Virus record (IMG/VR): IMGVR_UViG_3300035701_002807
Location: 1 to 44,422 of that record
Direction: 5' to 3' (one strand)
Length of the DNA: 44,422 nt
Source: a virus
The notes under the pieces were generated by a model, which saw only the letters and a list, made by a program, of their open reading frames with translations, did no database searches and had not been told where the DNA came from. This document shows, in pieces, positions 13,020-32,288 of this stretch. The number at the start of each line of letters is the position of its first letter. The first letter of the stretch is position 1. Position numbers and translations under genes: made by a program.

Positions 13020-13046
13020 TGACAATTCCTATTTTTGTGGTATACT
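13019..13046 (+). promoter_or_regulatory. Plus-strand sigma70-like promoter, extended -10
   Basis: Consensus TTGACA at 13019-13024, a 16-base spacer, and TATACT at 13041-13046 preceded by TGG, giving an extended -10. Seven bases after the -10 is an ATG (13054), so transcription would start at or next to the start codon, giving a leaderless message. It points against every neighbouring gene. Confidence 0.72.
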
Positions 13047-15904: not shown

Positions 15905-16422
15905 TTTATTCCTCCCTTAAAGTCCTGACGGACTAAACTGAATAAATGTAAATCTTCATACTTACCATTAAAATAATATTCTTCTTTTAAAATTCCTTCT
16001 TTCTTAAAACCGATTTTATCCAACCGTTCCATAATTTGTAATGTTTCTATATTATTATTCAATACCGCTGTTTTAATTTTATTCAAATTAAGTTGGTTAA
16101 AAGCATAATCTATAAACCACATTAAAACCTTAAAACCTACACTTTTATTTTGATTTTGTTTTTCTGGTATTTCTATATGAAATTTGCATCTCCTATTCCT
16201 AAAATCCAAGTCTGTTATAAGAGTAAACCCAATTAGTTCATTATCTTTTTCTATCTGGAATAATTTACATAAAGGATTTGTTAAATATCCAGCGAATTCA
16301 TTTATAATCTGTTCGGCGGTATAAGGTGTTTTATCTAATCTTGATTTTAATTGGAAATCTTCCAAAGAACACCAATAAACTATTTTCTCCCAAAACTTTT
16401 TATCTATTGCTTTAACAATCAT
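15895..16422 (-). CDS. GNAT-family N-acetyltransferase (RimJ/RimL-like)
   Basis: Residues about 65-170 show the GNAT core: LIGFTLITDLDF, CKFHIEIPEKQNQNKSVGFK (acetyl-CoA loop, degenerate), then LNNNIETLQIMERLDKIGFKKEG and KYEDLHLFSLV. RimJ/RimL-type enzymes acetylate amino groups of proteins or amino sugars. Inside a tail operon it could modify a virion protein or an amino sugar of a glycan; the sequence does not settle which. Confidence 0.78.
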   Translation of the reverse strand: MIVKAIDKKFWEKIVYWCSLEDFQLKSRLDKTPYTAEQIINEFAGYLTNPLCKLFQIEKDNELIGFTLITDLDFRNRRCKFHIEIPEKQNQNKSVGFKVLMWFIDYAFNQLNLNKIKTAVLNNNIETLQIMERLDKIGFKKEGILKEEYYFNGKYEDLHLFSLVRQDFKGGIKCQ

Positions 16423-17390: not shown

Positions 17391-20231
17391 CTACCAACGA
17401 GGTGGCTTGACTGTAAAAAGTAGAACCACCCGTTTAATTGTTATATTATTTGCGTCATTTGAATAAAATCTTAATCTGATTAATTCTGCAACTGAATTGG
17501 GGAAATTTGCTGTATAAATCGTAGGATAAGTTGCCAAGTTAATATAAGTTTCCTCTGTTCCGTTTTTTACAAATGTGCTTGCTTCTGTTCCCCTATCTAA
17601 AGAATAATAACAATACAGATTCCCAAGTGATTCAGATGTGTATTCTATCCTTATTCCCCTGAATCGTTTTATTTGTCTGGGATAACCTAAATCAAGTTCT
17701 CCACTTCTGAAATTAAATTCTATTGCCGATTCTACTGGAGCACCGCCTCCAGCATATATCTTGACCACATAACCATCTTCTAAATAAAGATTTGGAACTG
17801 CAATAGTAGAGGCATTATTGGTATATAATTTGACTTTATATTGTATATACGCATCTGCGGAGACTGCTGTAATCTCAGAACCATCAGGTTCGGTGAATGG
17901 ACCAGACCAATCTGCCGCCGAAACTGTCGCCGAATTTACTCCTGTCCTAAGCCAGAAATTAACATCTCCCGTAGTTCCCAAACTTTCATTCCAAAGTAAT
18001 TGTGCCAAAGCAGTAGCGTTTATGGCTATTACAGGGCTTTTCAGCCATCCAGAAGGATATACTGTATCTTCTTCAGTCTTATAAGCAGAAAGTGGCCCAG
18101 TGGTCAGGGAACTGACTATCTGAGCACCTACATCAGCACTGATAGCGGAAGTTAAAGCCAATGTAGGATTCGTTTCCGTTCCACCAGTCGCTACCTGAGA
18201 CAATGTCCCAGCATCCAATTCGGATTTTAATTTATGAACTATATCATAGGTTTTCTCGTCAGCATCTTCTCTATACATAAACCCCTCTGTTGAGTCCCCC
18301 GTATATAACTCATCCCTATCCCCTGCCCCATACCATCTACAAAAACAATTTATATGTTTAGTATCAGTAGAAAACGAATCAGTCCTAAAATCATAAATCA
18401 ACTGCGTATCATTATAAGAAACTCCATTTTCACCATTGGTAAAGGTAAGGTAATATTTATCATCCTGAAAATGACCTTCACAGTCCGTAAGTTTGATGTT
18501 TAAAATCTTATCTGCTTCAACAGATACTTTATTTGAAAGTGGTTTTGTATTCTGCCCGTCAAATAAGTTTAATTGTTTGCCAGTCTCGCCTTTCTTTGAA
18601 AGAAAAATTATCCCATAACTTGATTCGGCAATACTATAAGGGGCGATACACCCGTCGTATGAATATGGTTCAGATACTGCCCAATTTGTAGGGTCTCCGT
18701 CGGTGAAAATTCTCCTTATGGAATTTCTTTTAAAAACACATAACGCCCCTGTTGGGTCGTGGGCAAGACCAGTGATTTCATCTCCATCATCTTTGGCGAC
18801 ATAAATATAATTTGTAGAAGGAAAGATGTCGGGATAACTGGTAACAGAAGCGATTTTAGAATAATAAAGGCAATTTTTATCTGCGGGATTCCCAGCAGTA
18901 AAAATCCTGTCTTTGTGTAGAATACCAAATTTACAAATAGGCGGAACACCGTTATCTGTGGGTGCCTGAATTGTGGTGTCTAATGCGGAATCAGCGGTGT
19001 TATCGTTATAAGGAACTCCACTTGTATAACCTAATACTTGTGCCTTTGTATGTCTTGAGTGATAATAATAAGTTGCACCGCCTACTGTAGTTCGGTAAAT
19101 CCTCATATGCGTTACATTGGCAGGTGCGATTTCAAAAGTATGTAAGTCAATAGAATCAGAGGCATCCACGGCTACTGCTAAATAACCACCTCTTGAGGCT
19201 TCCTGATAACCGTCATATTCCCAAGTAAAATAATATTTATAAGTCCCTACCGCCAAAACTCCAGTTCCATTTTTAGCACCTGTTGGAGCGGTAACCATCA
19301 CTTTACAACCCATTATGTCAGAAGCACCATTTGAATTATCTTCATAATCTGATACACTTTCACCTTCTACACACATTGCACCATCGAAGTAAGCTACCCC
19401 GTAGCCATAGACAGCATGAATACATAATTTTAAATTAGTAGCATCACTTTCTACTTTCCAAGTAGCAGATATAAATGTCCACTCATCTGCGGTAATATAA
19501 GGAGTCAAATATATTCTCAGTAAATCGCTTGTTACTATAAATCCATTGTCAGCACCAAGGTTTGAAGACTTTATCCATATTCCCACAGTAACACTTCTAC
19601 CTCGCCAATAAGCCATTCCTTTTACTTGACCTATATCATAAACTAATCCAGCATCATTATTTTGAGGAGATGTTAATTTCACTGAATAAGAACCTAATTT
19701 TACTATACTGCTTTCTCTAGCTACAGAACCTCCATTTAAATCTGCTGTCCAACCATCAGGAGCAACTGAAGTTCCTGCACTCCAATTCTCAAAATCTCCA
19801 TTAGAAATATGATTAGTAACTGTTCCAGCAGTTTTCATATTTGCATCAACGCCATTAAACAGATAATGGAAATTCTTATAAGTTACCCCGTTGTATCTTA
19901 AATTAGGCGTTACTGTGGCTAAATTAGTAAAGGTTCCTAAACTATCAGAACCGACTTTTAGGTTCGTATCATAAACACAAAGAAAATACCTGTTAGAATT
20001 AACATAAATCCTCTCAACAGCCATAACGGGCTTTGTTCCTAAAGATGTATCATTATATCTGGCTCTATTTAAACGTTTACTTATGCCTTTTAAAGAGTCA
20101 AAACGGGCATTTTGGACTATGTCTCCCGCACCCGCAGGTATGTTTAAATCAGTAAGAGAGTTAATCAGACCCAAAGAAAAATCTTTTATCTCATACTGTA
20201 ATAAACCTTCATCTAACTGTCCTATCGGCAT
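17391..20231 (-). CDS. Large tail protein, tail-tubular-B/stabilisation-like with a carbohydrate-binding-type domain (946 aa)
   Basis: The start region (YEIKDFSLGLINSLTDLNIP then NARFDSLKGISKRLNRARY) is typical of podovirus tail-tubular or stabilisation proteins. Residues about 145-305 form an inserted domain resembling a carbohydrate-binding jelly roll (SNGDFENWSAGTSVAPDGW, SYSVKLTSP, WTFISATWKVES, AYFDGAMCVEGES). The remainder repeats beta-propeller-like strands (IAPANVTHMRIYRT, DDGDEITGLAHDPTGALCVF). The start is ATG 20231 from a TAATG junction. This would form the tail nozzle; the inserted lectin-like domain may touch host glycans. Confidence 0.72.
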   Translation of the reverse strand: MPIGQLDEGLLQYEIKDFSLGLINSLTDLNIPAGAGDIVQNARFDSLKGISKRLNRARYNDTSLGTKPVMAVERIYVNSNRYFLCVYDTNLKVGSDSLGTFTNLATVTPNLRYNGVTYKNFHYLFNGVDANMKTAGTVTNHISNGDFENWSAGTSVAPDGWTADLNGGSVARESSIVKLGSYSVKLTSPQNNDAGLVYDIGQVKGMAYWRGRSVTVGIWIKSSNLGADNGFIVTSDLLRIYLTPYITADEWTFISATWKVESDATNLKLCIHAVYGYGVAYFDGAMCVEGESVSDYEDNSNGASDIMGCKVMVTAPTGAKNGTGVLAVGTYKYYFTWEYDGYQEASRGGYLAVAVDASDSIDLHTFEIAPANVTHMRIYRTTVGGATYYYHSRHTKAQVLGYTSGVPYNDNTADSALDTTIQAPTDNGVPPICKFGILHKDRIFTAGNPADKNCLYYSKIASVTSYPDIFPSTNYIYVAKDDGDEITGLAHDPTGALCVFKRNSIRRIFTDGDPTNWAVSEPYSYDGCIAPYSIAESSYGIIFLSKKGETGKQLNLFDGQNTKPLSNKVSVEADKILNIKLTDCEGHFQDDKYYLTFTNGENGVSYNDTQLIYDFRTDSFSTDTKHINCFCRWYGAGDRDELYTGDSTEGFMYREDADEKTYDIVHKLKSELDAGTLSQVATGGTETNPTLALTSAISADVGAQIVSSLTTGPLSAYKTEEDTVYPSGWLKSPVIAINATALAQLLWNESLGTTGDVNFWLRTGVNSATVSAADWSGPFTEPDGSEITAVSADAYIQYKVKLYTNNASTIAVPNLYLEDGYVVKIYAGGGAPVESAIEFNFRSGELDLGYPRQIKRFRGIRIEYTSESLGNLYCYYSLDRGTEASTFVKNGTEETYINLATYPTIYTANFPNSVAELIRLRFYSNDANNITIKRVVLLFTVKPPRW

Positions 20232-20926
20232 TATATCCCCCAACTATCTATATCACCCAATGAACTCGGCGTTCCTAAATGATATGGTCTAAAGGGTTCA
20301 TTGAGATTTTCCTCATCCTTATTCACCCAAGAACTTGCTTCACTAATAAAACCCCTAAATTCGTTCTTTGCTATCTCTGCCTGTTGATATTCGCCCATTG
20401 CCTGTTTTGCTTTCCAAGCCATATAAAGCACTATTCCTTCTTGTAAATCAACCAAATCTCCCCTACCATTAAAGGAGTCGGAAGTGTCAGTTGTCATCTG
20501 TGTCGGCATAGCAAAATAATAAACCAAAAGACCATTAGTTTTATCAGAAGAAGATGTCGGGTATGTCCCCAGCATATCTCCTCTTTTATAGACTGCTTTG
20601 GGTGTGCCAGTATCATCGTTTCTCCAACCTGGAACATACAAATCAAGCCAACTCATAGTAACTATTTTAAGCGGTGTATAGTCAGACCCATCGTAGTAAT
20701 GCACTCCACCTACCAAATCAAGTTTCAGAAATAAAGTTAAATAAGTAGAAAGACTATATTCCGCAGTCCCACTCGTAAGACTTATGCTCCCTGATGTGGG
20801 AAATAATTCTAAAATCCTTGCTATGTTATTAGCACCTCTTTGAGCCCATAAATCCATCTGCGTAGTCGTAACTGGAGAATCTGGTGCTCTTTGGCTAAAT
20901 TCTGTTCTTATTTCTGACCGTATCAT
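20231..20926 (-). CDS. Head-tail adaptor / tail-tubular-A-like protein (231 aa)
   Basis: MIRSEIRTEFSQRAPDSPVT with LWAQRGANNIARIL, then ADWK-like strands (ISLTSGTAEYSLS) and MAWKAKQAMGEYQQAEIAKN, matches the adaptor (gp4/gp11-type) proteins that bridge portal and tail. The start at ATG 20926 is set by AAGGGGGG 6 bases upstream. It is followed, TAATG-linked, by the large tail protein, the usual order in podoviruses. Confidence 0.65.
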   Translation of the reverse strand: MIRSEIRTEFSQRAPDSPVTTTQMDLWAQRGANNIARILELFPTSGSISLTSGTAEYSLSTYLTLFLKLDLVGGVHYYDGSDYTPLKIVTMSWLDLYVPGWRNDDTGTPKAVYKRGDMLGTYPTSSSDKTNGLLVYYFAMPTQMTTDTSDSFNGRGDLVDLQEGIVLYMAWKAKQAMGEYQQAEIAKNEFRGFISEASSWVNKDEENLNEPFRPYHLGTPSSLGDIDSWGI

Positions 20927-20959
20927 AAACAACCCCCCTTAAACCATTTTAAATACACT

Positions 20960-22024
20960 TTAAATAAATCCTTTAAGCACATCCAAATAACAATTAGCCA
21001 CTCTTTCAACGTTGTAATTTTCTCTGATATATTTATAAGCATTGTTACCTATCTCTTTTCTTAAATTCTCATTTTCAATTAACTTACTCAAGCACTCCAC
21101 CCACCCATCTTCCTCTTTAACCAAAAAACCAGTTTTTCCGTGTTCTATATTCTTATAAGATTCTACATCTGAGGCTACTGTCGGTATTTTAAGTGCTGAC
21201 GCCTCAAGCCACCTTAGATTAGATTTACATCTGTTAAATTCCAAATCTCTTAAAGGGGCTATATTGATGTCAGCGTTCATATCCTTTAATTTCTGAGGAT
21301 ATTGATTTATATTCACCCAAGAATGATAATCCTCAAAGATTACCCTTTTATGTTCCAAGTAAGGAACCTCATAACCACCATATCTAAAATGAAATACTAC
21401 ATTAGGAAATCTATCTAAAATTTTGGGAACGATATTCTTGATTAATCTTAAATTTATATGATGCCCCGCCCCGCCTTCCCAACCGATTTTTATTCTTTTG
21501 TCCCTATGTTTCTTTAGTTTAAGATTGTCCCAAATCTCAAAATCTATTGAATTAGGTATGACGAATACTTTGGAGTTCTTGGGAGTAAATATCTTCTTTA
21601 AATAATTAGTGGAAACTATCACCCCGTGCGATTTGCGTATCTGTTCATCACCCCATAATTCTACATTCGTTCCAGGACCTACCAAATTGAAATTGGGTGA
21701 ATTTGAGTTAACCGAATAGGGATTGTCGTCATATTCAGCCAGAATAGGTTGTTTATGGGCTTCCTGAAGAGCTAAAATCAACGCTATTGCTTTTTGGGTA
21801 TGAATACTTTGAAATATAACTATATCACTTTGATATACAAGTTCATTTATCTCGGAAATAAACTCCTCGGTCATCTCCTTTTCCCAAAAACAAGTTAATT
21901 GAAAATCAGGTCCCCAGTAGGTAAAAGCGACTTCGTGTCCCATTCGTCGTAGATACTTGACGAAGTTCTCCATACGATAAAAAACAACTGGACTATTTAG
22001 GGTCGGCAAAAAGAGTATTTTCAT
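20960..22024 (-). CDS. GT4-family glycosyltransferase (354 aa)
   Basis: GT-B fold sugar transferase. The N-terminal Rossmann half begins MKILFLPTLNSPVVFYRMEN. The C-terminal half has KIGWEGGAGHHINLRLIKNI and KSNLRWLEASALKIPTVASDV, where the family binds the nucleotide sugar with an E-x7-E-like motif, ending KTGFLVKEEDGW. The donor and acceptor cannot be told. It is the last gene of the glycan cassette before the adaptor gene, 33 bases away, and overlaps the upstream gene by 4 bases. Confidence 0.85.
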   Translation of the reverse strand: MKILFLPTLNSPVVFYRMENFVKYLRRMGHEVAFTYWGPDFQLTCFWEKEMTEEFISEINELVYQSDIVIFQSIHTQKAIALILALQEAHKQPILAEYDDNPYSVNSNSPNFNLVGPGTNVELWGDEQIRKSHGVIVSTNYLKKIFTPKNSKVFVIPNSIDFEIWDNLKLKKHRDKRIKIGWEGGAGHHINLRLIKNIVPKILDRFPNVVFHFRYGGYEVPYLEHKRVIFEDYHSWVNINQYPQKLKDMNADINIAPLRDLEFNRCKSNLRWLEASALKIPTVASDVESYKNIEHGKTGFLVKEEDGWVECLSKLIENENLRKEIGNNAYKYIRENYNVERVANCYLDVLKGFI

Positions 22025-22509
22025 CTTTTAACTATCGCTAAAACATAAGAGGGTATATCATTACGATATACAATTCCTTTTTCTAAAATCTTATAATCCC
22101 TTAAAAATCGTTCTACACCATTAGGAGTAAATCTTATATAATCAGTTCCATAAATTTCAAATCCTATTGATAAAATCCCAAATAAAACATAACCATCGTC
22201 TTTTAATAAACTCCCTATTGTTTCCCGTATCTTAAAGGGATTATCACATTGTTCGGTTACCCCATTGCAGATTATTACATCTGCTTTTGGTAAATTTATA
22301 GGGTCTTTTTCTAAATCAAGTAGTATATCTGGATTTTTGCGTTCTAATCTGTCTATCGTTTTATAGTCGTAATCAGTGAATTTATCGTTGTAATTGTGGG
22401 AATCTGACCTTCCTATGTCATAAATCAAACTTCCCTTTTTGATATAATGTTTCAGTTTGTCCTGAAACTCGTGGTATTTTGCCCTTTCAGGTGTTATGAC
22501 TTCAAACAC
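22021..22509 (-). CDS. SAM-dependent methyltransferase-like protein (162 aa)
   Basis: A compact class I methyltransferase: SLIYDIGRSDSHNY replaces the usual Gly-rich motif I, then DYKTIDRLERKNPDILLDL, ADVIICNGVTEQCDNPF and the typical acceptor-side motif DYIRFTPNGVERFL. The family often methylates sugars in surface-polysaccharide clusters. The Gly-poor motif I may weaken SAM binding. Starts at GTG 22509 and overlaps the GT4 genes on both sides. Confidence 0.7.
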   Translation of the reverse strand: MFEVITPERAKYHEFQDKLKHYIKKGSLIYDIGRSDSHNYNDKFTDYDYKTIDRLERKNPDILLDLEKDPINLPKADVIICNGVTEQCDNPFKIRETIGSLLKDDGYVLFGILSIGFEIYGTDYIRFTPNGVERFLRDYKILEKGIVYRNDIPSYVLAIVKR

Positions 22510-23357
22510 CTATATGACTCCTTGTTTTTAATACACTCATACATCCGTTTATATTCTGGGACAATATGTTCCCAGAGATATTTCTGCTCAATCAATTTAC
22601 GTCCCATATATTTCTGGAGTTTTAGGGTTATATCATTTTCTGTGGGTTCTATGAACTCCACCCATCCCTCAAATTCCTTCCACGAACCCTCTTTTGTCAT
22701 TAACACGGGTATATTACAGGATAATGCTTCCATAACGGTATCGTTGAATCCTTCGGTAGTTGAAGGATGGACATAAACATCAATTCCCATATAGAAGTCC
22801 TGCATTTTTTCGTGGGGAATTTCTCCAGATGATTTTTTCAGGACATATCCAGCTTTCTTCAACGACAATCCCAATTTTTTACATACCTTTTCCAGAAGTT
22901 CAAAATTTTTAGTCGGGGTCTCTGTCGTTCCCGCAAATCCTATCACTGGATTTTTATATTTAAAGAACTTATTCGTATCAATACCTTTCTTGGAATGTGG
23001 CACTCCATATATTTGGGCTATCTTCGGACTTAAAGAATTGATATAAGGACATTCATTGAATATCTTGTTAAGTTGTTCCGGTTCCCCATCATATCCGACG
23101 AATAATGACCTCTCGTTGACTATGGTTATCGCCACTTTGTTTTTATGAGATATAATATAACCATAATAATCAGGGGTAAGTCCGCTTGTTACTAAAAAAT
23201 GCACTATGTCATAATCCTGCTCATTCTCAATACACTCTTTATTCCGATATGCTCCCTTAATATCATATTCATATTCAGGAAGGTATTTCCTTATGGCTAA
23301 TGCGAAATTATGCAATGCCCAGTTATTAAGATTGTCAGGTAATAAGAGTATTTTCAC
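22494..23357 (-). CDS. GT4-family glycosyltransferase (287 aa)
   Basis: Shares the opening MKILLLPDNLNNWALHNFAL with the gene at 23814-24638, so the two are diverged duplicates. The donor half is VIGFAGTTETPTKNFELLE and DVYVHPSTTEGFNDTVMEAL, the normal GT4 E-x7-E site. It is shorter than most GT4 proteins (about 350), with a reduced N-terminal domain. Starts at GTG. Adds a sugar to a glycan or protein; substrate unknown. Confidence 0.83.
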   Translation of the reverse strand: MKILLLPDNLNNWALHNFALAIRKYLPEYEYDIKGAYRNKECIENEQDYDIVHFLVTSGLTPDYYGYIISHKNKVAITIVNERSLFVGYDGEPEQLNKIFNECPYINSLSPKIAQIYGVPHSKKGIDTNKFFKYKNPVIGFAGTTETPTKNFELLEKVCKKLGLSLKKAGYVLKKSSGEIPHEKMQDFYMGIDVYVHPSTTEGFNDTVMEALSCNIPVLMTKEGSWKEFEGWVEFIEPTENDITLKLQKYMGRKLIEQKYLWEHIVPEYKRMYECIKNKESYRCLKS

Positions 23358-23830
23358 TTTAATGCTTCTTCCAATCTTCTCATTCTTACGGGTTCGTATA
23401 AAGCCCAGTAATGAAAATTGTAAACATCTCCGCCTTTTCTATAATCAAGGTCAAGACCAAATTCAGCACATACCTTAATCAAAGTATTACTTATCTTGTT
23501 CCACGGTGGAAAAAATGTCTTTATGGGAATATACTCTTTCTTATTCTCGGATATTCTAAATTTCCAATATTCAAAACATAAGTTAAAATCATCCCTTATC
23601 TCTTCTTCGCTTATTATCGAATAGTCTTTATGCGTCCACCCGTGCAAACCAATCTGGAGATTAGGAGTTGTCATTAACCAATACCACACCTCTTTGTTGT
23701 CCCAGATGTCTTTCATCAATACGGCTATGGTATGAATTCTATTGTATTTAAGGAATAATTCGTGAACTTCTCTTAACAATCGGCAGTCAGAAGTTACGGA
23801 AATATCATCATCCCTATACAATTCTTTCAT
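23354..23830 (-). CDS. NodB-like polysaccharide deacetylase (158 aa)
   Basis: Metal-dependent deacetylase fold: RDDDIS at 6-11 supplies the Asp-Asp pair, and IGLHGWTHKDYS gives the H-x3-H metal site (His78 and His82). IKTFFPPWNKIS is the substrate-groove motif. Such enzymes remove acetyl groups from N-acetylated sugars. It is at the short end for the family, with the C-terminal His motif replaced. It lies between the two paralogous GT4 genes and overlaps both. Confidence 0.75.
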   Translation of the reverse strand: MKELYRDDDISVTSDCRLLREVHELFLKYNRIHTIAVLMKDIWDNKEVWYWLMTTPNLQIGLHGWTHKDYSIISEEEIRDDFNLCFEYWKFRISENKKEYIPIKTFFPPWNKISNTLIKVCAEFGLDLDYRKGGDVYNFHYWALYEPVRMRRLEEALK

Positions 23831-24638
23831 ATATTTCCTTATACCGTCGGCAGATTTTTTCCCAGTTGTAATTATCTTTTATGAAATTTCTGGTAATGTA
23901 ATTATTTAAGGCATTAAAAAGACTATCATAGTCGTTTTCTATGATTGTAATATTTGTTCCCAATTTATCCCATATCCCAGTTTTTGTGGTGATTATATCC
24001 ACATTCATAGACAATGCTTCAAGTATCACATTAGAACATCCTTCGGTTGTGGAAGGGTGAACCAACACATCAATAGAACGATAGAAATTAGGCATCTCGT
24101 TAAAGGGTATCTGCTTTTCTTTGTAAAACAAACATTTCAAAGTCAACCCCAATTCCTTACAGACTTGTTCTACTAGTGGATAACCTTTTCTATCTGCTTT
24201 TACACCAATAAATCCTACTACGACATTTTTGGACGGATTAAAAAACTCCAAATCAACCCCATTAGGAAGATACTCACAGTTATACATCTTGGCTATCTTT
24301 TCACTTACCGAGGTAACTTTAGCGACTTTCTGTATCATTTCTTCCAATATGGGAATTTTTACACAATCACCCTCAAGTAATGACCTTTCATTAGTAATGG
24401 TTAATACACATCTGTTATAAAAACCATATTGCTTAAGGTATTCATTATGGCAATCTATCCCGCCAGTATAATTAAAGTGGACTACGTGATAATAAGGGAA
24501 TAAACCAATCAATTTTTCATTATTTCTGTGCCCCTGAATGATTTCGATTTGGTGTTCAGGGATATATTTCTTTATAGCCTTACAACGGTTATGGGATGAC
24601 CAATCATTCAAATAATCAGGTAGAAGTAAAATCCTCAT
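23814..24638 (-). CDS. GT4-family glycosyltransferase (274 aa)
   Basis: Paralogue of the gene at 22494-23357: MRILLLPDYLNDWSSHNRCK, then VVGFIGVKADRKGYPLVEQV and DVLVHPSTTEGCSNVILEAL with the E-x7-E donor site. Compact like its relative, and separated from it only by the deacetylase gene. Probably adds a related sugar in the same pathway. Confidence 0.83.
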   Translation of the reverse strand: MRILLLPDYLNDWSSHNRCKAIKKYIPEHQIEIIQGHRNNEKLIGLFPYYHVVHFNYTGGIDCHNEYLKQYGFYNRCVLTITNERSLLEGDCVKIPILEEMIQKVAKVTSVSEKIAKMYNCEYLPNGVDLEFFNPSKNVVVGFIGVKADRKGYPLVEQVCKELGLTLKCLFYKEKQIPFNEMPNFYRSIDVLVHPSTTEGCSNVILEALSMNVDIITTKTGIWDKLGTNITIIENDYDSLFNALNNYITRNFIKDNYNWEKICRRYKEIYERIV

Positions 24639-25270
24639 TTAATCCCGTGAAATCCCATCCATTGTGGTATTTTTTTTGTATTTGATGTATCTGGGACATT
24701 ATAAAAAATATTTTTTATCTCTAAATCATTCAAATCTTTCAGAGTATTCCTGAGTTGCTTTTCCGTAAATATCCTTGTGTGATAAGGATGATTGATTATG
24801 CCCTTTTTTGCATTAAAACTTCGTGGATGAGGAACAGAACCTATAATCAAACCCCCATTTTTTAAAACCCTTAATGCTTCTTTTACTACTTTATCAACAT
24901 CAAAAACATGTTCCAATATCTCTGAAACTATCAATACATCAAAATATCCATCTTTAAAGGGCAGATTCTCGGCTCTTGCTACCTTCGCTATTATTCCTTT
25001 CTGACAAGCAAGGTTAATCATCTGAGGGTTTACATCTACCGCATAAACAGTCGTGCCTGGTTTTTTCTGCAAAACCAGTCTTTCGAAACCACCGCTATTA
25101 CAACCTAAACTTAAAATCAATAACCTCTCATCAGGAACCCAATTCAATAACTGTTGTGCCCTTGCCCAACCAGTATGGTTAGGGTTAAAATATTTTTCTT
25201 CCCTGTCGGTATCTATATGATATACTTCGTGGGCTTTTACTGCCTCATCTTCTGATTTAAAATATGGCAT
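24635..25270 (-). CDS. Class I SAM-dependent methyltransferase (211 aa)
   Basis: Motif I is LILSLGCNSGGFERL, followed by VYAVDVNPQMINLACQKGII (SAM ribose acid), VARAENLPFKDGYFDVLIVSEILEHVFD and ALRVLKNGGLIIGSVPHP. This is the Methyltransf_11/25 type common in lipopolysaccharide and glycan clusters, where it methylates hydroxyl or carboxyl groups. It overlaps GT4 and GT2 genes on either side. Confidence 0.85.
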   Translation of the reverse strand: MPYFKSEDEAVKAHEVYHIDTDREEKYFNPNHTGWARAQQLLNWVPDERLLILSLGCNSGGFERLVLQKKPGTTVYAVDVNPQMINLACQKGIIAKVARAENLPFKDGYFDVLIVSEILEHVFDVDKVVKEALRVLKNGGLIIGSVPHPRSFNAKKGIINHPYHTRIFTEKQLRNTLKDLNDLEIKNIFYNVPDTSNTKKIPQWMGFHGIK

Positions 25271-25997
25271 CTTTCTCTAATCCAGCTCTTTTCCAAAAAG
25301 TATCATCAATGGAAACATTGAATTCCTTGTAAATCCTAATTTTTTGTTTCGTGGCTTCTTTTATATCCCTAAAAGTATCGAGATGGCTTAAATCAACTTT
25401 CCTCATTAAAACATTCATTATGGGAACAAATTTATAACCTTCTTTGAATAACTCTATGAATAAAGCCTCATACTGGTCTGTATGTTTACAATCGGTTCTA
25501 TAAGGATGTTTTAGGATAATCTCTTTTTTGTATGCTACCGTCGGATGACTTATTCCTCGGGGATAGTTCTTATAATCATAATTAAAAGCCATTTGTGTCC
25601 GTTGTGGACGACCTTGTATATCTACATTATTCACCGAGTGATAAAGAATATCTGTATCGGGATGTTTTTTAAAATAATTATAAGTAATTTTAGCCTTATT
25701 TTTATGGTAAATATCCCCTGCGTCAGTTACACAGATTATATCGGCTAAGGAATATTTATTACCCTCATTCCTACACCAACCCGCCCCCATCCATTCAGTA
25801 GTTTTGAACAACCTTATCCTATTATCCTTGTTCTTAAAATATTCCATTACCTCAAAGGTAGAATCAGTAGAAAAGTCATCAACGGCGATTATCTCAATAT
25901 CCTTTAGGGATTGTCCTATCAGGCTTTTGAAGGTCTGAGCGATAAATGACCCACAATTCTTTACAGGCATAACAAAAGATATTTTAGGTTTCCTCAT
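25257..25997 (-). CDS. GT2-family glycosyltransferase (246 aa)
   Basis: GT-A fold: KISFVMPVKNCGSFIAQTFK, then DIEIIAVDDFSTDSTFEVM (first Asp pair) and NKYSLADIICVTDAGDIYHK (the DxD-like metal site is DAGD). A C-terminal helical tail carries RKVDLSHLDTF. It resembles 27830-28678 in layout. Adds sugars from nucleotide donors to a growing glycan; substrate unknown. Confidence 0.86.
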   Translation of the reverse strand: MRKPKISFVMPVKNCGSFIAQTFKSLIGQSLKDIEIIAVDDFSTDSTFEVMEYFKNKDNRIRLFKTTEWMGAGWCRNEGNKYSLADIICVTDAGDIYHKNKAKITYNYFKKHPDTDILYHSVNNVDIQGRPQRTQMAFNYDYKNYPRGISHPTVAYKKEIILKHPYRTDCKHTDQYEALFIELFKEGYKFVPIMNVLMRKVDLSHLDTFRDIKEATKQKIRIYKEFNVSIDDTFWKRAGLEKDAIF

Positions 25998-26385
25998 ATG
26001 GGTCTATAAATTTTACAGGTATCTCATCTATCCCTAAAGACTTGGCAATAGCCATACGGTGGCATCCGTTAAGTATAACCCACTGGTTTAATGGGTATCC
26101 GTCATCTCTTTTTCTTTGTATCAATATGGGGAACTTAAGTCCATTTCTTCTTATATCCACATACAAAAGATAAAAGATAAATAATTTATCTTTATTAACT
26201 ATTTGACAAAATTCATTATCACTTATTATTTTAATTGCTTCTTCCCAATAATTGAGTTCGGTGTTGTAAAGAATTTCTCTTAACTTTTGTCTTACATCCA
26301 GCATTTGTTGTATTTCCCTATTGGCTTCACTTATCCTTCTAATGGAATTTACATCAAGATTATTTCTCAGTTTGGAGATGTCCAT
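25984..26385 (-). CDS. ParB/Srx-like domain protein (133 aa)
   Basis: The C-terminal half holds a ParB N-terminal-type fold: DIRRNGLKFPILIQRK, then WVILNGCHRMAIAKSLGIDE and IPVKFID, where NGCHRM replaces the usual GGHRR motif. ParB-like folds bind CTP or ATP and can be nuclease-like or, as sulfiredoxins, kinase-like. The first half is helical. Standing inside a glycan cluster it is more likely a sugar- or nucleotide-related enzyme than a partition protein. It overlaps the His-rich gene by 26 bases. Confidence 0.68.
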   Translation of the reverse strand: MDISKLRNNLDVNSIRRISEANREIQQMLDVRQKLREILYNTELNYWEEAIKIISDNEFCQIVNKDKLFIFYLLYVDIRRNGLKFPILIQRKRDDGYPLNQWVILNGCHRMAIAKSLGIDEIPVKFIDPYEET

Positions 26386-26815
26386 ATTTTTTAGGATAAA
26401 GAGTCTTTAATCCTTCCAAAGTAACAAGGGCGAATTCCTCAAATTCTTCTTTAGTCATATGGAAACGGTTATTACGATAATGAAAGTGAATCATATCACC
26501 CTCAAACTGGGGGTCTTGAAGTTCTATCTGGAATAAATCCCCATCGTGTTCTGGTATCTTAGGAAGTTCGTTAAGTCTGTGTAATAAATCACAAACTCCT
26601 CGTTCCGCAGGTCTCTTCCCACCCTCAACCCAAGAATGATAACTCTGTGCTATCCCTTTACAGAAAATCTCATATTCACCCGTTCCAAAAAGTATTCTTA
26701 AATTCCTGATATGTAAATGGAACTCCTCTCCTCTTTCGGTCTGAAACCAACAAGGTGCGAGTTTATTCTGTCCTGAAATCTTTTTTGTCGCTAAAATCTG
26801 TAAATTATGTCCCAT
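26360..26815 (-). CDS. His- and acid-rich protein of unknown function (151 aa)
   Basis: Contains EEFHLHIRNLRILFGTGEYE and IHFHYRNNRFHMTKEEFEEF, with clustered His and Glu that could bind metal, and HSWVEGGKRPAER. The strands around HLHIR and FHYRN suggest a small beta-rich, cupin-like fold, but I recognise no family with confidence. It is tightly linked between the radical SAM and ParB-like genes and may act as their partner. Confidence 0.6.
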   Translation of the reverse strand: MGHNLQILATKKISGQNKLAPCWFQTERGEEFHLHIRNLRILFGTGEYEIFCKGIAQSYHSWVEGGKRPAERGVCDLLHRLNELPKIPEHDGDLFQIELQDPQFEGDMIHFHYRNNRFHMTKEEFEEFALVTLEGLKTLYPKKYGHLQTEK

Positions 26816-27849
26816 TATAAAAAATTTGTATGTTGTTTCTCTGATTTTAGGTATTCTAAAATCTCATTATATTTCGTATATCGGCAAGGAGGACAACGAT
26901 TGACATTTATCTTCCTTATCACTTCCTGTCGTTCTTTACTTTCCCATATTTCCTTGAAAGTGTTTTTATATAAATCCCCAAAACAATATTGCGGAAGTCC
27001 TCTTAATTGGCAACAAACATACATCTTTCCATTAGCAGCAATAACACTTAAAAGATTATGTCCTAAACACTCGTTATAACCCTTGTCTTGATTACCCAAC
27101 TCCTCAAACCTGTGAATTATGGGATAGACTTTAAATTTATCATCTACATATTTAATAAGACATTCGTATATTTGTCGTTTCGTTTCGGTCAGTATTTTCT
27201 CACTCAACTCCATCCCCCGCATAAAAACAGGTCTTATCTGTAAGTATGAAGCCCCTGCCTCTTTGGCTAAAAACGCGGCAGAGATGATTTCGTCATAATT
27301 GTAGGGATGAACTAAAAACGCCACCCCAATATCAAGTTCGGGTGAATTAAGTCGCATATACTCAATCCAATTAAGAATATGCCTCAAATTATTCCTTTGG
27401 GGTTTGTGCAACTTGACATAGGTGTCCTCTTCTCCCGCATCCAAACTTATTCTCACAAATCTACAAGTTTTGATAATCGCATCACTTTTTTCCTTATCTA
27501 AAAGACCTCCATTAGTAACAAGGGCGACCTCCATCCCTCTTTCCCTAACGAAATGAAGGGCGAGGACTATATCAGGATGGGTGAGAGGTTCGCCCCCACC
27601 AGTAAAAGTTATAGATTTTATCCCTACCTCTGAGAGTTGATTGATAATGTCAAGTAACTTATTCTTTTCTAAATAGGTCTTTTCCCTCTTTCTGAACTTT
27701 CCGTTAATGCACCAAACACACGAATGATTGCATAGATTAGAGGGGTCTATCTCGCAGGATACAGGATAAGTCAATTCCCCTTTTGCAATCTGTAATAATT
27801 TCTCCGGATGATTTAAAACCTTATAAGAACTAAATATCTTTAAGTTCAC
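26815..27849 (-). CDS. Radical SAM/SPASM-domain enzyme (344 aa)
   Basis: Cluster motif CNHSCVWC (Cys40, 44, 47), SAM-binding GGGEPLTHPD, and a SPASM-like C-terminus with CCQLRGLPQYCFGDLYK and final CPPCRYTKY. Many homologues act on peptides or carry out sugar epimerisation and dehydration. GTG is the start, with GGAG 7 bases upstream. It sits in the middle of the glycosyltransferase series, so a role in making the sugar or modifying the acceptor is likely. The substrate is unknown. Confidence 0.86.
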   Translation of the reverse strand: MNLKIFSSYKVLNHPEKLLQIAKGELTYPVSCEIDPSNLCNHSCVWCINGKFRKREKTYLEKNKLLDIINQLSEVGIKSITFTGGGEPLTHPDIVLALHFVRERGMEVALVTNGGLLDKEKSDAIIKTCRFVRISLDAGEEDTYVKLHKPQRNNLRHILNWIEYMRLNSPELDIGVAFLVHPYNYDEIISAAFLAKEAGASYLQIRPVFMRGMELSEKILTETKRQIYECLIKYVDDKFKVYPIIHRFEELGNQDKGYNECLGHNLLSVIAANGKMYVCCQLRGLPQYCFGDLYKNTFKEIWESKERQEVIRKINVNRCPPCRYTKYNEILEYLKSEKQHTNFL

Positions 27850-28678
27850 CCATCAACTCCATTTTCTTTGTCTTTTTATCAAGTAGATACTTATTAAAGT
27901 TAATATCATAAAGTTTCTTTAAAAGTTCTGCATTACTTCCATATTCAATCAAAAGTTGTGGCATAGAGGATTCGGCAACTCCCAAATCAACCAATTTTCT
28001 ATATAAAATACTTTCGTGGACTCTTTTAAAAGCATTGGCATAAACCCTATAAATACAAAGTGGTTGTTCGACATAGCAAGTCTTGACTTTTGCCTTTATT
28101 AATAAGTTATAAAACATTCCCCAATCACCTACACCAGAGTAGGAATTATACGGGTATTTAAGGATGGTTTCTTTTTTATACCCAACCGTAAAATGACCAA
28201 TACAGAAAAGTCCTGTTTTTTTAAGTCGTCTCTTTGAAAACTTAATAACCTCGATGAAACTTGGTATTGTTTCGTCAACTTCTCCAAACCTATTTCGCTG
28301 AAGATAGGAACTGTAAAACATACCGTATTCACTACTTTCTTTAAATTTCTCATAAGTTATTTGAGCCCTTTCGGGCATATACCAATCATCTGAATCAGTA
28401 ACACAAATAATATCTGAAGAAGCAATTTGATTTCCGATATTCCTCGCCCTATCAATCCTTTCGTCAACCGGTAAGTCAATGGGGTCGAGATATTTTTTGA
28501 TAATGCGTTTGTCTTTATTAACAAAAGTATCTATAATATCCCTTGAATCATCAGTAGAATCATCATCAATTATTATTATCTCTATATCTTCTAATGTTTG
28601 ATTTCGTAATGTTCTTATTGCATCGGGTAAATAAACTGACTTGTTCCTGTTAGGCATTACAAACGAAATCAATGGCAT
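27830..28678 (-). CDS. GT2-family glycosyltransferase (282 aa)
   Basis: LISFVMPNRNKSVYLPDAIR, then IEIIIIDDDSTDDSRDIID and IASSDIICVTDSDDWYMPER, the GT-A metal-binding site (DSDD). The C-terminal third (FTVGYKKETILKYPYNSYSG) matches the acceptor region of GT2 enzymes of surface-polysaccharide clusters. Related to the gene at 25257-25997. It overlaps the radical SAM gene by 20 bases. Confidence 0.88.
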   Translation of the reverse strand: MPLISFVMPNRNKSVYLPDAIRTLRNQTLEDIEIIIIDDDSTDDSRDIIDTFVNKDKRIIKKYLDPIDLPVDERIDRARNIGNQIASSDIICVTDSDDWYMPERAQITYEKFKESSEYGMFYSSYLQRNRFGEVDETIPSFIEVIKFSKRRLKKTGLFCIGHFTVGYKKETILKYPYNSYSGVGDWGMFYNLLIKAKVKTCYVEQPLCIYRVYANAFKRVHESILYRKLVDLGVAESSMPQLLIEYGSNAELLKKLYDINFNKYLLDKKTKKMELMGELKDI

Positions 28679-28980
28679 TACTGTTTTTCTTCTATCTTTA
28701 CCGCTATTTCTTGCGGAGTCATTTCATCAACCGCCTTCTCCGCCACATCCGCTTCCCTGACTTCAAGTCTATAATATGGTTCTTTCTTTCCCCCACCGAC
28801 ATCCCTGTCCTCAATTCCTACAACTCTTACTACTGTATTTAAGGGGAATATCTCATTGTGGTTTTTTCGTAAGAGACTCTTTATGGCGTTGGCAGAAATC
28901 TCCACAATAGGAAAAACATCTTCAACCTTATTTTGATACATAGTATCTATTATTATTTTTCTGATTCCTGCGGATTCCAT
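28678..28980 (-). CDS. Small protein of unknown function (100 aa)
   Basis: Begins MESAGIRKIIIDTMYQNKVE, has a central beta-rich part (FPLNTVVRVVGIEDRDVGGG) and an acidic C-terminus (MTPQEIAVKIEEKQ). No domain recognised. It overlaps the 533-residue glycosyltransferase by 28 bases and the GT2 gene by one. It may be a subunit or carrier-like protein, but no acyl-carrier motif is seen. Confidence 0.6.
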   Translation of the reverse strand: MESAGIRKIIIDTMYQNKVEDVFPIVEISANAIKSLLRKNHNEIFPLNTVVRVVGIEDRDVGGGKKEPYYRLEVREADVAEKAVDEMTPQEIAVKIEEKQ

Positions 28981-30554
28981 ATAAAATCCCTTCCTTTTTC
29001 TAAAATAGCATAGATTATCTTTTTGTAATTTTTCTTGTCTAAAATCTGTTTATAATAAATCCTTCCCGCTGTAATATGTTCGGGGTTGGGATTCTTCTTT
29101 ACTTGGCGTATCTTCTCTGTTAACTGAACTTTTGCCTTACCATAATCATCCCTATTCACATTCAAATCTATATATTCCAAATGGGGCATTTCAAAGTTAG
29201 TGATTACCTGCCTTCCACCCAAAAGAAAATGTATTGGTGTCTGCGGGAAACCATCGTGGATACTAATCCTGACGTTCATAGAACACATCTTGATTGCATC
29301 TTTGATTTCTACAAAAGGCAGATATTCTATGTTTTCCTCTTTTGCTTTTTTGCCCCCTCCAAAGAACTTAAAATCTATATCAGGCATTGACTTTGCCACA
29401 TCCAAAAGAAATTCCTCATTGTGCATAGGATTGGTGTCGGAATAGTAAACCCCTACGGTAAACTTGTCTGGTAAAGGTATATCTTCTGGTATGTTCTCAC
29501 ATAGTGGCATATAAACTTTGTGTGCCTTTATTCCTATCTCTCCCAATTCTTTCTCTAAGAAATCCGAGTTGCATAAATGAATATCTATATGTTTAAGGAT
29601 TTTATCCCTGACATATTTTAATGTTTCCCAGTTAAAACCTGTCCTTAACTGCCAGACATCTGTTCCTATCCATTGAATTACCTTTAGACAATCTTTAGGG
29701 GCGTTGGCGAATATCTTTGCGTGATTTTCTGCCGCCAAAGGATAAAATCCCATCACATAAATCATTTTGTATTTATGTTCAAACATTGACGGTATCTGAA
29801 CCAAGGATGTGTTAGGATGAGCACCGAAATAATCTGCGTCTAAAACTTTCGCCCTCTGTATCGCCTGATAGGGTGCACCTAATGTAGAAACACAGATTGG
29901 TTTTTCGGGTATATTGTTTATCTTTCTGATATGTGAAACTTTTTCTAAATAAGTGAATTTTTTATTTCCACTTATACTTTGTTCATTAGAAGGTTCTGTC
30001 ATAAATACAGGGTCAGGAAGATAATATCCCTTATGTCCTTCTTTTGTAATCCTAATAAACAAATCCCAATCTTGAAAAAACTCTAAATTCTCGTCAAATC
30101 TGGGAAAAATTTCCCTTTTCATAGGGGACATTGTGGAGATATAATTCGATGTATTTAATAGATATGGGTCAAATGGTCTTGAGGAAAATACATTTAGACT
30201 TTCCACATTCCATCTATAACCAGAATATACAAATGAACAATCTGAATTATCCTCAAAGGTATCTTTAATCAGTCGCAACATCCCTGCCAAAAGAATACAA
30301 TCAACGTCAAAGAAAAAAACTATCTCGCCAGTGGATTTGTCAAACCCGAAATTCCTTTTTGCTGAAGCAAGTTCATTTTCAATTTCATAATACGAAATCC
30401 CTGTTTCTTCGCATATCTTTTTGGCTTCTTCATTTTCTTTCCCTATTACGATAATTTCCTTGTCTGTGTAATCTTGTTCCTGGATTGAAAGTATGCATCT
30501 TTTTAGAAACGTATTATCCTTTTTGTGTAAAGGAATGATGAACGAAAATTTCAT
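28953..30554 (-). CDS. Two-domain glycosyltransferase, GT2 plus GT-B (533 aa)
   Basis: Residues 1-220 are a GT2 domain (FSFIIPLHKKDN, KRNFGFDKSTGEIVFFFDVD with the DVD metal site, then FFQDWDLFIRI). Residues 220-533 are a GT4/GT-B-like domain (YVMGFYPLAAENHAK, CLKVIQWIGTDVWQLR, FTVGVYYSDTNPMHNEEFLL, IRISIHDGFPQTPIHFLL). One chain could thus add two sugars in turn. The GT-B half lacks the usual E-x7-E, having a divergent donor site. It overlaps both neighbours. Confidence 0.82.
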   Translation of the reverse strand: MKFSFIIPLHKKDNTFLKRCILSIQEQDYTDKEIIVIGKENEEAKKICEETGISYYEIENELASAKRNFGFDKSTGEIVFFFDVDCILLAGMLRLIKDTFEDNSDCSFVYSGYRWNVESLNVFSSRPFDPYLLNTSNYISTMSPMKREIFPRFDENLEFFQDWDLFIRITKEGHKGYYLPDPVFMTEPSNEQSISGNKKFTYLEKVSHIRKINNIPEKPICVSTLGAPYQAIQRAKVLDADYFGAHPNTSLVQIPSMFEHKYKMIYVMGFYPLAAENHAKIFANAPKDCLKVIQWIGTDVWQLRTGFNWETLKYVRDKILKHIDIHLCNSDFLEKELGEIGIKAHKVYMPLCENIPEDIPLPDKFTVGVYYSDTNPMHNEEFLLDVAKSMPDIDFKFFGGGKKAKEENIEYLPFVEIKDAIKMCSMNVRISIHDGFPQTPIHFLLGGRQVITNFEMPHLEYIDLNVNRDDYGKAKVQLTEKIRQVKKNPNPEHITAGRIYYKQILDKKNYKKIIYAILEKGRDFIWNPQESEK

Positions 30555-31150
30555 ACTTTATCCTCCAGTTTAAAAACTTCATCTCCCACGTGCCCCACCG
30601 AAAGGGTCGTATTCACATAGATTTTGTATCCCGTTTTTCTTGCCTCTTTACAAAACATTATATCTTCTGAATAATCTCCCCTATAAAAGAACCAGGGTTC
30701 AGATAATTCCTTAAAGACCTTTTTCCTTATCAACATTACCCCTGTTCCCACGGCATCCACTTCAATCAATTCAGATGTCCTATCCACCTTCTCCGTCTGG
30801 ATAAGTTCTTTATTTTCATTGAAATAAAATATATTCGGTGGATGAGGTTTAATCCTACCTGGATAAAGAACTCCTACAATATCCTTTGAATTAAAATAAA
30901 GACGATGTAAAGTATCTGGGGGAAAAGTCATATCTGCGTCTATAAAACAGATATAATCCGCCCCAACATCAAGTCCTGCGTGCACTAAAGCATTTCTGGC
31001 ATAATGTACCTGTCGGCTTCCTATGATAATTGAATAAGTTAGTTTAAATATCGGATGTTCCCGCCAATAATCAAGTAAATGAAGCAAACTATCAACCGTG
31101 TGTGCTTTGAAACTTTCTAAAACAGGTATCCCTAAAAAGATAGTTTCCAT
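30551..31150 (-). CDS. Short GT-A-type glycosyltransferase (199 aa)
   Basis: YARNALVHAGLDVGADYICF and FIDADMTFPPDTL supply the DxD-like site. GVMLIRKKVFKEL and EDIMFCKEARKTGYKIY form the acceptor side. This is a compact phage-type GT-A, often found near capsid genes and sometimes linked to DNA or virion glucosylation. It is the first gene of the cassette after the capsid gene. No ribosome site precedes the ATG; instead a hairpin fills the 58-base gap. Confidence 0.8.
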   Translation of the reverse strand: METIFLGIPVLESFKAHTVDSLLHLLDYWREHPIFKLTYSIIIGSRQVHYARNALVHAGLDVGADYICFIDADMTFPPDTLHRLYFNSKDIVGVLYPGRIKPHPPNIFYFNENKELIQTEKVDRTSELIEVDAVGTGVMLIRKKVFKELSEPWFFYRGDYSEDIMFCKEARKTGYKIYVNTTLSVGHVGDEVFKLEDKV

Positions 31151-31208: not shown

Positions 31209-32288
31209 TTACGCTGTTGAGTTATTAACCAGAATAACACCTGCGGATTTGTTCAAGATTTTTGCAGCCATTGTAATCTTGAAACCCACAGTTGCCTGTT
31301 GGTTAACTGGGTCAGCAGTTCCAGCAGAACCGAGTTGTTTAATGAACATCTCATAACCTTTTTGCTTGTTACCTTGTCCAGAGATTTCAGTAACTCCATA
31401 TGCGTGAGGACCGAATATGATTGTTCCATAAACAGTTCCAGAACTCGCAAGAAGAGTATCGCCAGACACAGCATAAGCAGGGGCATCAGAGGATTCAACA
31501 AACCTTACTCCGCCTACCTGTCCAACCTCACCCTTATACATTAATTCAGGTGAAGTATATTTCTGCCATCCCTTCCATCCAGAAGCGGTCATAAGTGAAT
31601 ATGCCATCTTCGGATGTATAATCCCAACGTATAACCCATCATCAAACGGGTCAACATTGTTATTTCTTAACCACATCGCACCGTGTTGAACTTGTTTTAC
31701 GGTTAAACCTGATGTAGTCATAGCTACTACTGTTGCCGAAGTTGCTAATCTTGCGTTGTTATGAAGCATAGCAAAACCTTCTTGGCTTTGTGCAGTCGTG
31801 CCAGTAATACTTCCAGAATATATCCTCGCTGTGATAGCGGAAGCATTTAGAAGATTCGTCAGTGAAGAACGCACAAGAACATCAGCAACTATAAAACCAA
31901 CCTGTTCTCTAATATAGGTATCTACTGTTCTAGCGGCTTTCTCGCCCATCAATGTTGCAGCATCTTCAAGAATGGGGTCAATCGCAGTCATAATCAGTAA
32001 ATCAGAAACTCTCGCATAAGCACCTCTTTGAATCAAGGTCGCACTAACCGTAGTTGCCGAAAGTAATACTTGTGCAGGTGCTGTCAACTCGGTCATATTG
32101 GTTGTTACCGCAGATTGGTCTGCGAAACGATACCATTGGACCGTTTTACCACTTTGTGCGGGTAGAGGTTTTTTGTCCCCGAATTCGTAAAAACGAAGTT
32201 TCGGTAACATTCTCTCTAACCCAACTTTTTCATAATAGGTCACGACGAGTGTAGTTAAACCAGCACCCGACGTTCTCTGTCCAGCCAT
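31209..32288 (-). CDS. Major capsid protein, N4-gp56-like family (359 aa)
   Basis: Forms the icosahedral shell. Family features: TYYEKVGLERMLPKLRFYEF, GKTVQWYRFADQSA, RGAYARVSDLLIMTAIDPIL, GLYVGIIHPKMAYSLM, and the ending TADPVNQQATVGFKITMAAKI, all typical of N4-gp56 coat proteins. It follows the scaffold gene by 1 base, the usual head-gene order. The protein is Ala/Thr/Ser-rich. Confidence 0.9.
   Translation of the reverse strand: MAGQRTSGAGLTTLVVTYYEKVGLERMLPKLRFYEFGDKKPLPAQSGKTVQWYRFADQSAVTTNMTELTAPAQVLLSATTVSATLIQRGAYARVSDLLIMTAIDPILEDAATLMGEKAARTVDTYIREQVGFIVADVLVRSSLTNLLNASAITARIYSGSITGTTAQSQEGFAMLHNNARLATSATVVAMTTSGLTVKQVQHGAMWLRNNNVDPFDDGLYVGIIHPKMAYSLMTASGWKGWQKYTSPELMYKGEVGQVGGVRFVESSDAPAYAVSGDTLLASSGTVYGTIIFGPHAYGVTEISGQGNKQKGYEMFIKQLGSAGTADPVNQQATVGFKITMAAKILNKSAGVILVNNSTA

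Follow-up and report, generated by a model that had tools for sequence, protein, structure and literature searches.

Why would a small podovirus carry, between the genes for its capsid and its adaptor, a continuous run of glycan genes, and what would their product decorate? This question is raised by IMG/VR virus record IMGVR_UViG_3300035701_002807, a stretch of 44,422 bp which comprises the whole record and is called the window here, and it concerns a cassette of 14 minus-strand genes at positions 20960-31150. A preliminary description of this DNA had pointed out the cassette and had left open whether its glycan goes onto virus particles or alters the host surface. According to the present analysis, the block is a real, co-inherited glycan-biosynthesis unit within the structural gene series and is not unique to the window genome. 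The evidence leans towards the virion, and with a probability of about one half the cassette is read as a phage-owned, late-expressed glycan module that would glycosylate virion proteins in the host cytoplasm.

The glycan-gene block

The inventory given in the preliminary description was borne out nearly item by item by Pfam and PHROG searches of the cassette proteins, which yielded six GT2/GT4 glycosyltransferases (GTs), a short GT-A enzyme, a NodB/DUF2334-like deacetylase, two methyltransferases, a radical SAM/SPASM enzyme (SAM, S-adenosylmethionine), a ParB-like protein and two unknowns. Three labels (short methyltransferase, NodB-like, ParB-like) are the weakest and lie below curated cut-offs; they are nonetheless consistent, and the corresponding genes are also present in related phages. 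As had also been described, the genes form a single overlapping chain, each of the neighbouring pairs sharing 1-28 bp. Upstream, the block is bounded at a distance of 58 bp by the gene of the major capsid protein (31209..32288, minus strand; phrog_1357 major head protein, E 3e-52), and downstream, 27 bp away, by that of an SU10-type adaptor (20231..20932, minus strand; PF24175 SU10_adaptor, 63 bits). No minus-strand terminator-like site was found between capsid and adaptor; in the window, terminator-like sites overall as well as promoter-like sites occur at chance level. The G+C content of the block is 0.32-0.39, compared with 0.40-0.43 for portal and capsid.

Conservation and selection in close relatives

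A capsid-guided IMG/VR search returned four close relatives, and the block is present, wholly or in part, in three sequences besides the window, one of which is complete at the junction. The capsids of two relatives, L001 and L002, are 82-84% identical to that of the window. In the truncated L001, the capsid gene is followed by those for the 199-aa and 533-aa glycosyltransferases (GT199 and GT533), a 100-aa protein and a GT2, corresponding to the 5' end of the block, and L002 (IMGVR_UViG_3300047202_000028), a 30.5-kb contig, contains the entire capsid-adaptor interval of 12.3 kb. Related metagenome contigs with the cassette beside the capsid gene, for which the preliminary description had proposed to search, thus exist, and in them the genes are linked and occupy the same junction, the opposite of the single, unlinked genes which it had named as the contrary outcome. 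Alignment-guided IMG/VR scans with GT533, the portal and the 151-aa protein gave only L001 and L002, or L002 alone, and scans with the radical SAM enzyme and the terminase recovered the L001/L002 records again.

L002 keeps 12 of the 14 cassette genes in unchanged order with 49-85% amino-acid identity. Best conserved are GT199 (85%), GT533 (80%), the 151-aa protein (about 80%), the terminal GT4 (80%) and the radical SAM enzyme (78%), compared with 80% for TerL and 69% for the portal. The ends of the block are conserved like TerL and above the portal, while interior genes have been exchanged, a pattern also known from surface-glycan loci. In the slot occupied in the window by a 287-aa GT4 and the short methyltransferase, L002 has two different methyltransferases; it has one further GT4 and, between the radical SAM and 151-aa genes, additional genes for a PIG-L deacetylase (PF02585) and a formyltransferase (PF00551). 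The glycan of L002 would probably be N-formylated.

The whole block is under strong purifying selection. Between the window and L002 cassettes, the proportion of nonsynonymous differences (pN) is 0.10-0.33 and that of synonymous differences (pS) is 0.62-0.86, the latter being near-saturated, and the corresponding rate ratio (dN/dS) is 0.03-0.16 across four window-L001 cassette pairs. Since gene order is conserved in the relatives and selection is purifying, a chance arrangement is excluded.

Some further differences among the close relatives concern the structural genes. Capsid variation among five close sequences peaks at residues ~121-190 and ~265-285, with a mean pairwise difference of 0.4-0.6 in these two segments versus about 0.1 elsewhere; the AlphaFold capsid model, with a predicted local distance difference test (pLDDT) score of 38, is too poor to be used for judging whether the variable segments face outward. 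A small structural-looking protein of the window's fibre module (12753-13025) has a 49%-identical relative with a signal-peptide-like N-terminus inside the L002 cassette (9639-9965); this may represent a decoration protein of movable position and a candidate acceptor of the glycan. Between the portal and a small next gene, L001 (2747-3121) and L002 (4145-4519) carry a lysozyme/transglycosylase-like gene which is missing in the window. Homing-endonuclease-like open reading frames lie beside the terminase and capsid genes of L002 (1525-2085 and 5794-6360), which suggests mobile elements in its structural region.

The cassette enzymes

Proceeding from the capsid side on the minus strand, the cassette begins with GT199 (30551..31150), a short GT-A glycosyltransferase with a DAD motif (phrog_1574, E 1.6e-25; 83-85% identical in L001/L002). 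It is followed by GT533 (28953..30554; 86% identical in L001) with an N-terminal GT2 domain (PF00535, 54 bits); the C-terminal half received no family assignment, nor did a profile comparison with the GT4 set give one. Next come the conserved 100-aa protein (28678..28980; 57-95% identical in L002/L001), for which the Pfam and PHROG searches gave no family match, a 282-aa GT2 (27830..28678; PF00535, 88.7 bits) and the 344-aa radical SAM/SPASM enzyme (26815..27849), which exceeds the cut-offs of PF04055 and PF13186 and keeps the CxxxCxxC motif. An identity of this enzyme as viperin was rejected: it scores 67.8 bits against a cut-off of 180 in the NCBIfam model and has a SPASM domain, and the PADLOC viperin match spans the common core only.

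The middle of the block is formed by the 151-aa protein with a tandem HxHxR domain (26360..26815; two motif copies, about 80-81% identical in L002) and the 133-aa ParB-like protein (25984..26385; NGCHR/NGHHR motif), whose PHROG ParB-like matches (E 6.5e-6) amount to a sub-threshold call that is yet consistent with the label. Downstream lie a 246-aa GT2 (25257..25997; PF00535, 81 bits; 72% identical in L002), a 211-aa class I SAM methyltransferase (24635..25270; PF08241, 69.9 bits), a 274-aa GT4 (23814..24638; PF13692, 44 bits; 49% identical in L002) and the 158-aa NodB/DUF2334-like deacetylase (23354..23830), which falls just under the cut-offs of PF10096 and PF01522, keeps the DD, HxxxH and PPW motifs and is 51% identical in L002. 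The two genes of the variable slot, coding for the 287-aa GT4 (22494..23357; PF00534, 35 bits) and the short methyltransferase of 162 aa (22021..22509; PF13489, sub-threshold), precede the last gene, which encodes a 354-aa GT4 (GT354; 20960..22024; phrog_7162, E 9e-43; 80-82% identical in L002).

As read from the translations, motifs of the DxD or E-x7-E type are kept in most of the seven glycosyltransferases. A hydropathy scan revealed no convincing transmembrane helix in any cassette protein; values over the threshold occur twice, in GT533 and GT354, and both look like core strands. Neither a flippase nor a polymerase nor a Gtr membrane gene was found in the Pfam/PHROG scans of the block. 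With no convincing transmembrane helices and only weak GtrB-like N-terminal PHROG matches, the block differs from a GtrABC serotype-conversion cassette, and it differs from an independent capsule or O-antigen locus, as the block scans gave no initiating phosphoglycosyltransferase, flippase, polymerase or ABC exporter. The linkage of phage glycosyltransferases to virion genes, one feature expected of a virion-glycosylating phage, is present.

The HxHxR/ParB-like pair

The 151-aa protein, in which the two HxHxR copies are followed by a helix, gave no match in genome contigs (searched by peptide pattern), phages, PDB or 294 Planctomycetota genomes, and its AlphaFold model (mean pLDDT 39) is too poor to use. 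A search of Omnitrophota genomes, in contrast, found relatives, and these lie in polysaccharide clusters. In genome G321 (locus L097), a 338-aa protein carries the tandem HxHxR domain (E 1.5e-11 at Z = 50, 30% identity) and, after it, a ParB_N-like domain (residues 210-271, E 0.0097) with the motif NGHHR; its gene belongs to an extensive polysaccharide cluster that also contains RmlA-like, RmlB-like, GT, methyltransferase and PIG-L genes, some of these names being read from the sequence. Genomes G128 and G664 have a shorter HxHxR version in O-antigen-type clusters, adjoining an HxH-segment protein, and in G706 the tandem domain is found near nonulosonate-synthase-like and heptose-type genes. 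A degenerate ParB-like end of the HxH-segment protein in G128 and G664 was considered as a candidate only and is unconfirmed by Pfam.

In the window, the 151-aa and ParB-like genes are separate and overlap by 26 bp. Because the two parts are fused in one Omnitrophota protein and are neighbours in the phage, the proteins probably work together, and because the fusion lies inside a bacterial polysaccharide cluster, the ParB-like protein is placed in glycan synthesis. The label 'ParB-like' of the preliminary description stands. A partition function was rejected: of the 133 aa of the protein, only a C-terminal stretch (residues ~70-132) resembles ParB, there is no ParA in the block, and the gene is probably part of the glycan machinery, its product being the probable partner of the 151-aa protein. 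Enzymes that use nucleotides occur among proteins with the ParB fold, which makes a nucleotide-dependent step a reasonable guess for the pair.

The nearest cellular relatives of the window's radical SAM enzyme, from Omnitrophota and Planctomycetota, likewise sit among sugar genes, and one of these clusters can be read as a putative pseudaminic-acid pathway. In a Spirochaete metagenome-assembled genome (L019, 2146-3879), a radical SAM relative is apparently fused to a nucleotidyltransferase-like domain of CMP-sugar type and adjoins an apparent UDP-GlcNAc 2-epimerase; this arrangement hints at the chemistry carried out by this family of radical SAM enzymes.

The junction in distant phages

The capsid of Podoviridae sp. 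ctQWt234 from Manatee Spring (MW202801.1, 40 kb) is only 26% identical to that of the window. Its capsid-adaptor interval holds genes for a radical SAM enzyme (31% identical over the full length), a GT2, a PhyH protein, a methyltransferase, a NodB-like protein in the slot equivalent to that of the window's deacetylase, and a GT4. The last shares 30% full-length identity with GT354 and there, too, adjoins the adaptor gene, identified as SU10_adaptor in a Pfam check. Groundwater phages from the same source with differently annotated capsids have annotated sugar genes at the equivalent position: a GT after the capsid in MW202711.1 and MW202496.1, a gene for polysaccharide biosynthesis preceding a P22-type tail accessory factor in MW202691.1, and FkbM methyltransferase and GalT-like genes in MW202512.1. 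These annotations suggest that the region separating the capsid gene from neck or tail accessory genes is a recurrent insertion hotspot.

As a control, 40 more distant IMG/VR capsid relatives, each with at least 3 kb downstream of the capsid gene, were searched for GT2/GT4 genes. None of the 40 has one at the junction, and the two with any match carry it ~12 kb upstream of the capsid gene; as many of these records are fragments, the count is a lower bound. The block hence belongs to particular lineages and not to the capsid type.

Genome context and further sugar genes

The record has 227-bp direct terminal repeats (1-227 and 44196-44422), so the genome is probably complete or near-complete; their identity is 99% rather than 100%, perhaps owing to variation in the population or to the assembly. 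Nearly all genes lie on the minus strand, in the order small terminase (38650-39099; phrog_2538), RmlB, TerL, portal, scaffold-like protein, capsid and cassette, followed by the SU10 adaptor, a 950-aa protein that occupies the position of the stabilization protein, the genes for tail and fibres, the DUF115 and second radical SAM genes, and lysis genes. No Rfam match and no integrase were found in the window. Genes resembling acetyltransferases are present in the tail modules of the window (15895-16422), L002 (extended contig, 23581-24036) and L009 (28634-29221), the three phages with the cassette, and possibly add a further tailoring enzyme.

Two sugar genes outside the cassette, already named in the preliminary description, were confirmed in identity by family searches. 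The dTDP-glucose 4,6-dehydratase RmlB is encoded upstream of the terminase gene (37389..38360, minus strand; phrog_540); its TIGR01181 score of 273.6 bits falls somewhat below the model cut-off of 365 bits, and a PDB comparison matched dTDP-glucose 4,6-dehydratases (E 4e-59). It probably supplies a sugar donor for the cassette. Downstream of the tail-fibre genes, a DUF115/Maf-like domain is fused to a methyltransferase (7748..9145, minus strand). With 62.8 bits in PF01973 (cut-off 34.6), this is the sole domain in the window from a protein-glycosyltransferase family; its match to the PseD-like model NF050051 (E 3.5e-6) is far below the cut-off of that model. The gene is adjoined by that of the second radical SAM/SPASM enzyme (6802..7758, minus strand; PF04055 and PF13186 over cut-off).

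Destination of the glycan

If virion proteins are the target, the cassette would be expressed late, co-transcribed with the capsid gene, and would draw on activated sugars from host and phage, including dTDP-4-keto-6-deoxyglucose made via the phage RmlB. The seven soluble glycosyltransferases, with their predicted activities, would then add sugars one after another, and the NodB-like deacetylase, the two methyltransferases and the radical SAM/SPASM enzyme would trim and decorate them, assisted by the HxHxR/ParB-like pair. The likeliest acceptors would be either the capsid or the fibre proteins, which are rich in Ser/Ala and are encoded next to the DUF115/Maf-like gene, and the virus would leave the cell with a self-encoded, strain-specific glycan coat. 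The virion is preferred over the host surface because no flippase, polymerase, Gtr or initiating enzyme was found, because the block directly follows the capsid gene and the DUF115/Maf-like gene directly follows the fibre genes, and because capsid, adaptor and fibre are cytoplasmic proteins within reach of soluble enzymes. Virus-encoded, cytoplasmic glycosylation of capsids is established in chloroviruses, where predicted membrane domains are absent from four of six PBCV-1 enzymes (PMC5408694), and mycobacteriophage capsids and tails are O-glycosylated according to the accounts of Freeman 2023 given in PMC12619734 and PMC11652166, so phages do glycosylate their own virions.

Several points weigh against glycosylation of virion proteins. 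All bacterial homologues come from cellular polysaccharide or nonulosonic-acid clusters, so a host-glycan target is equally natural, and the missing flippase and polymerase could be supplied by host membrane machinery. No glycosylation site could be indicated, and DUF115 was not found in L002, which is incomplete, or in MW202801.1. Moreover, the radical SAM tree weakly groups the MW202801.1 enzyme with an Omnitrophota enzyme and not with that of the window; because the tree separates the two enzymes, their blocks may have independent origins at a single hotspot, and repeated recruitment there is possible. Remodelling of the host surface would mean that lipopolysaccharide, capsule or another host glycan is altered late in infection via the lipid carrier, flippase and polymerase of the host, preventing progeny, once released, from adsorbing again or competitors from infecting the cell. 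The glycosyltransferase islands of pelagimyophages were interpreted in this way by their authors (PMC7029224), and the occurrence of radical SAM and HxHxR homologues in cellular polysaccharide, O-antigen and nonulosonic-acid clusters as well as the weak GtrB-like PHROG matches of the GT2 genes fit with it. It is nevertheless judged rather unlikely, since the block is without Gtr, Wzx, Wzy, ABC-transporter or initiating phosphoglycosyltransferase genes and without a convincing transmembrane helix, since seven transferases plus tailoring enzymes exceed the needs of branch modification, and since a location in the virion gene series, with no integrase found, is unlike that of lysogenic conversion genes.

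Other destinations have less in their favour. A secreted or intracellular glycan, glycolipid or small glycosylated metabolite that favours infection, unattached to virion or envelope, would suit radical SAM/SPASM enzymes, which often modify peptides or cofactors, but the fixed capsid/adaptor position in several phages and DUF115 in the tail module favour virion proteins and render such a metabolic or decoy role improbable. Glycosylation of modified phage bases for evading restriction is a common role of phage glycosyltransferases (PMC12619734, PMC7029224). For this block it is very improbable: no hydroxymethylase, thymidylate-synthase-like or TET/JBP-like enzyme was found among the scanned window proteins (some small open reading frames lay outside the scan), the GT2/GT4 families are of polysaccharide type and are accompanied by a deacetylase and a formyltransferase variant, and the replication genes are located elsewhere. 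That the genes are accessory cargo parked at a recombination hotspot with no coherent product might be suspected from the lower G+C content relative to portal and capsid and from a junction which accepts differing sugar genes in different phages; this idea is largely refuted by purifying selection over the whole block, the conserved order of 12 genes and the intact catalytic motifs, and can hardly be upheld.

Comparison with known systems

Glycosylation of virion proteins, the preferred reading, has a functional likeness in the chlorovirus PBCV-1, which also encodes several glycosyltransferases together with methyltransferase functions and places strain-specific decorations on a conserved core, as the window family would do; many of the PBCV-1 enzymes are soluble, and their target in the cytoplasm is the capsid protein of the virus itself (PMC5408694). 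PBCV-1 is, however, a eukaryotic algal virus with genes scattered over a ~330-kb genome and with proven glycan structure and acceptor, whereas the window is a 44-kb phage with one compact block and a putative acceptor, and the likeness is one of proposed function. In pelagimyophages and cyanomyophages, too, GT genes and radical SAM cassettes occupy a variable region close to structural genes; in these ~150-kb myophages it is the tail-fibre area and shows little synteny (PMC7029224), in contrast to the window's block, which has a conserved order and lies at the capsid/adaptor junction in a small podovirus genome.

Virion O-glycosylation in mycobacteriophages involves one or few transferase genes. 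Phage-encoded glycosyltransferases are common to both systems, the mycobacteriophage glycan being placed on capsid and tail tube in the secondary accounts mentioned above, while the window combines seven transferases with a deacetylase, methyltransferases, a radical SAM enzyme and a dehydratase, and its glycan is a predicted one. Bacterial islands for surface polysaccharide or flagellin glycosylation have the same mix of GT2/GT4, radical SAM, DUF115/Maf and methyltransferase genes, and the HxHxR/ParB-like pair, too, is shared with bacterial polysaccharide islands. Unlike these islands, the window's block is without membrane assembly genes and is embedded among virion genes; they are the probable source of its genes. 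Finally, MW202801.1 shares radical SAM, GT2, methyltransferase, NodB-like and GT4 genes between capsid and SU10 adaptor, but its interval comprises six sugar genes and one hypothetical, includes a PhyH oxygenase and lacks the HxHxR/ParB pair, and an integrase is annotated in this phage. No paper describing it was found in a partial literature search.

Significance

Phage glycosyltransferase clusters and glycosylated virions as such are already known. In the same partial literature search, neither a 14-gene pathway for assembly and tailoring at a podovirus capsid/adaptor junction nor the HxHxR/ParB-like pair was found to be described. Tentatively, the podovirus capsid or fibres may bear a multi-sugar, deacetylated and methylated glycan, with interior parts of the cassette swapped like serotype genes, as a phage counterpart of chlorovirus capsid glycosylation which uses an undescribed HxHxR and ParB-like pair that also serves bacterial polysaccharide clusters. 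The link between the HxHxR and ParB-like proteins provides a first functional context for proteins otherwise annotated as 'unknown' and 'partition'. Phage glycosyltransferases are usually read singly, as DNA-modifying or O-antigen-modifying genes; with a pathway that is fixed at one junction, selected and partly exchangeable, strain-specific glycan coats of small phages become testable. If true, such coats would bear on adsorption, on the exclusion of competitor phages and on the recognition of phages by immune systems or predators.

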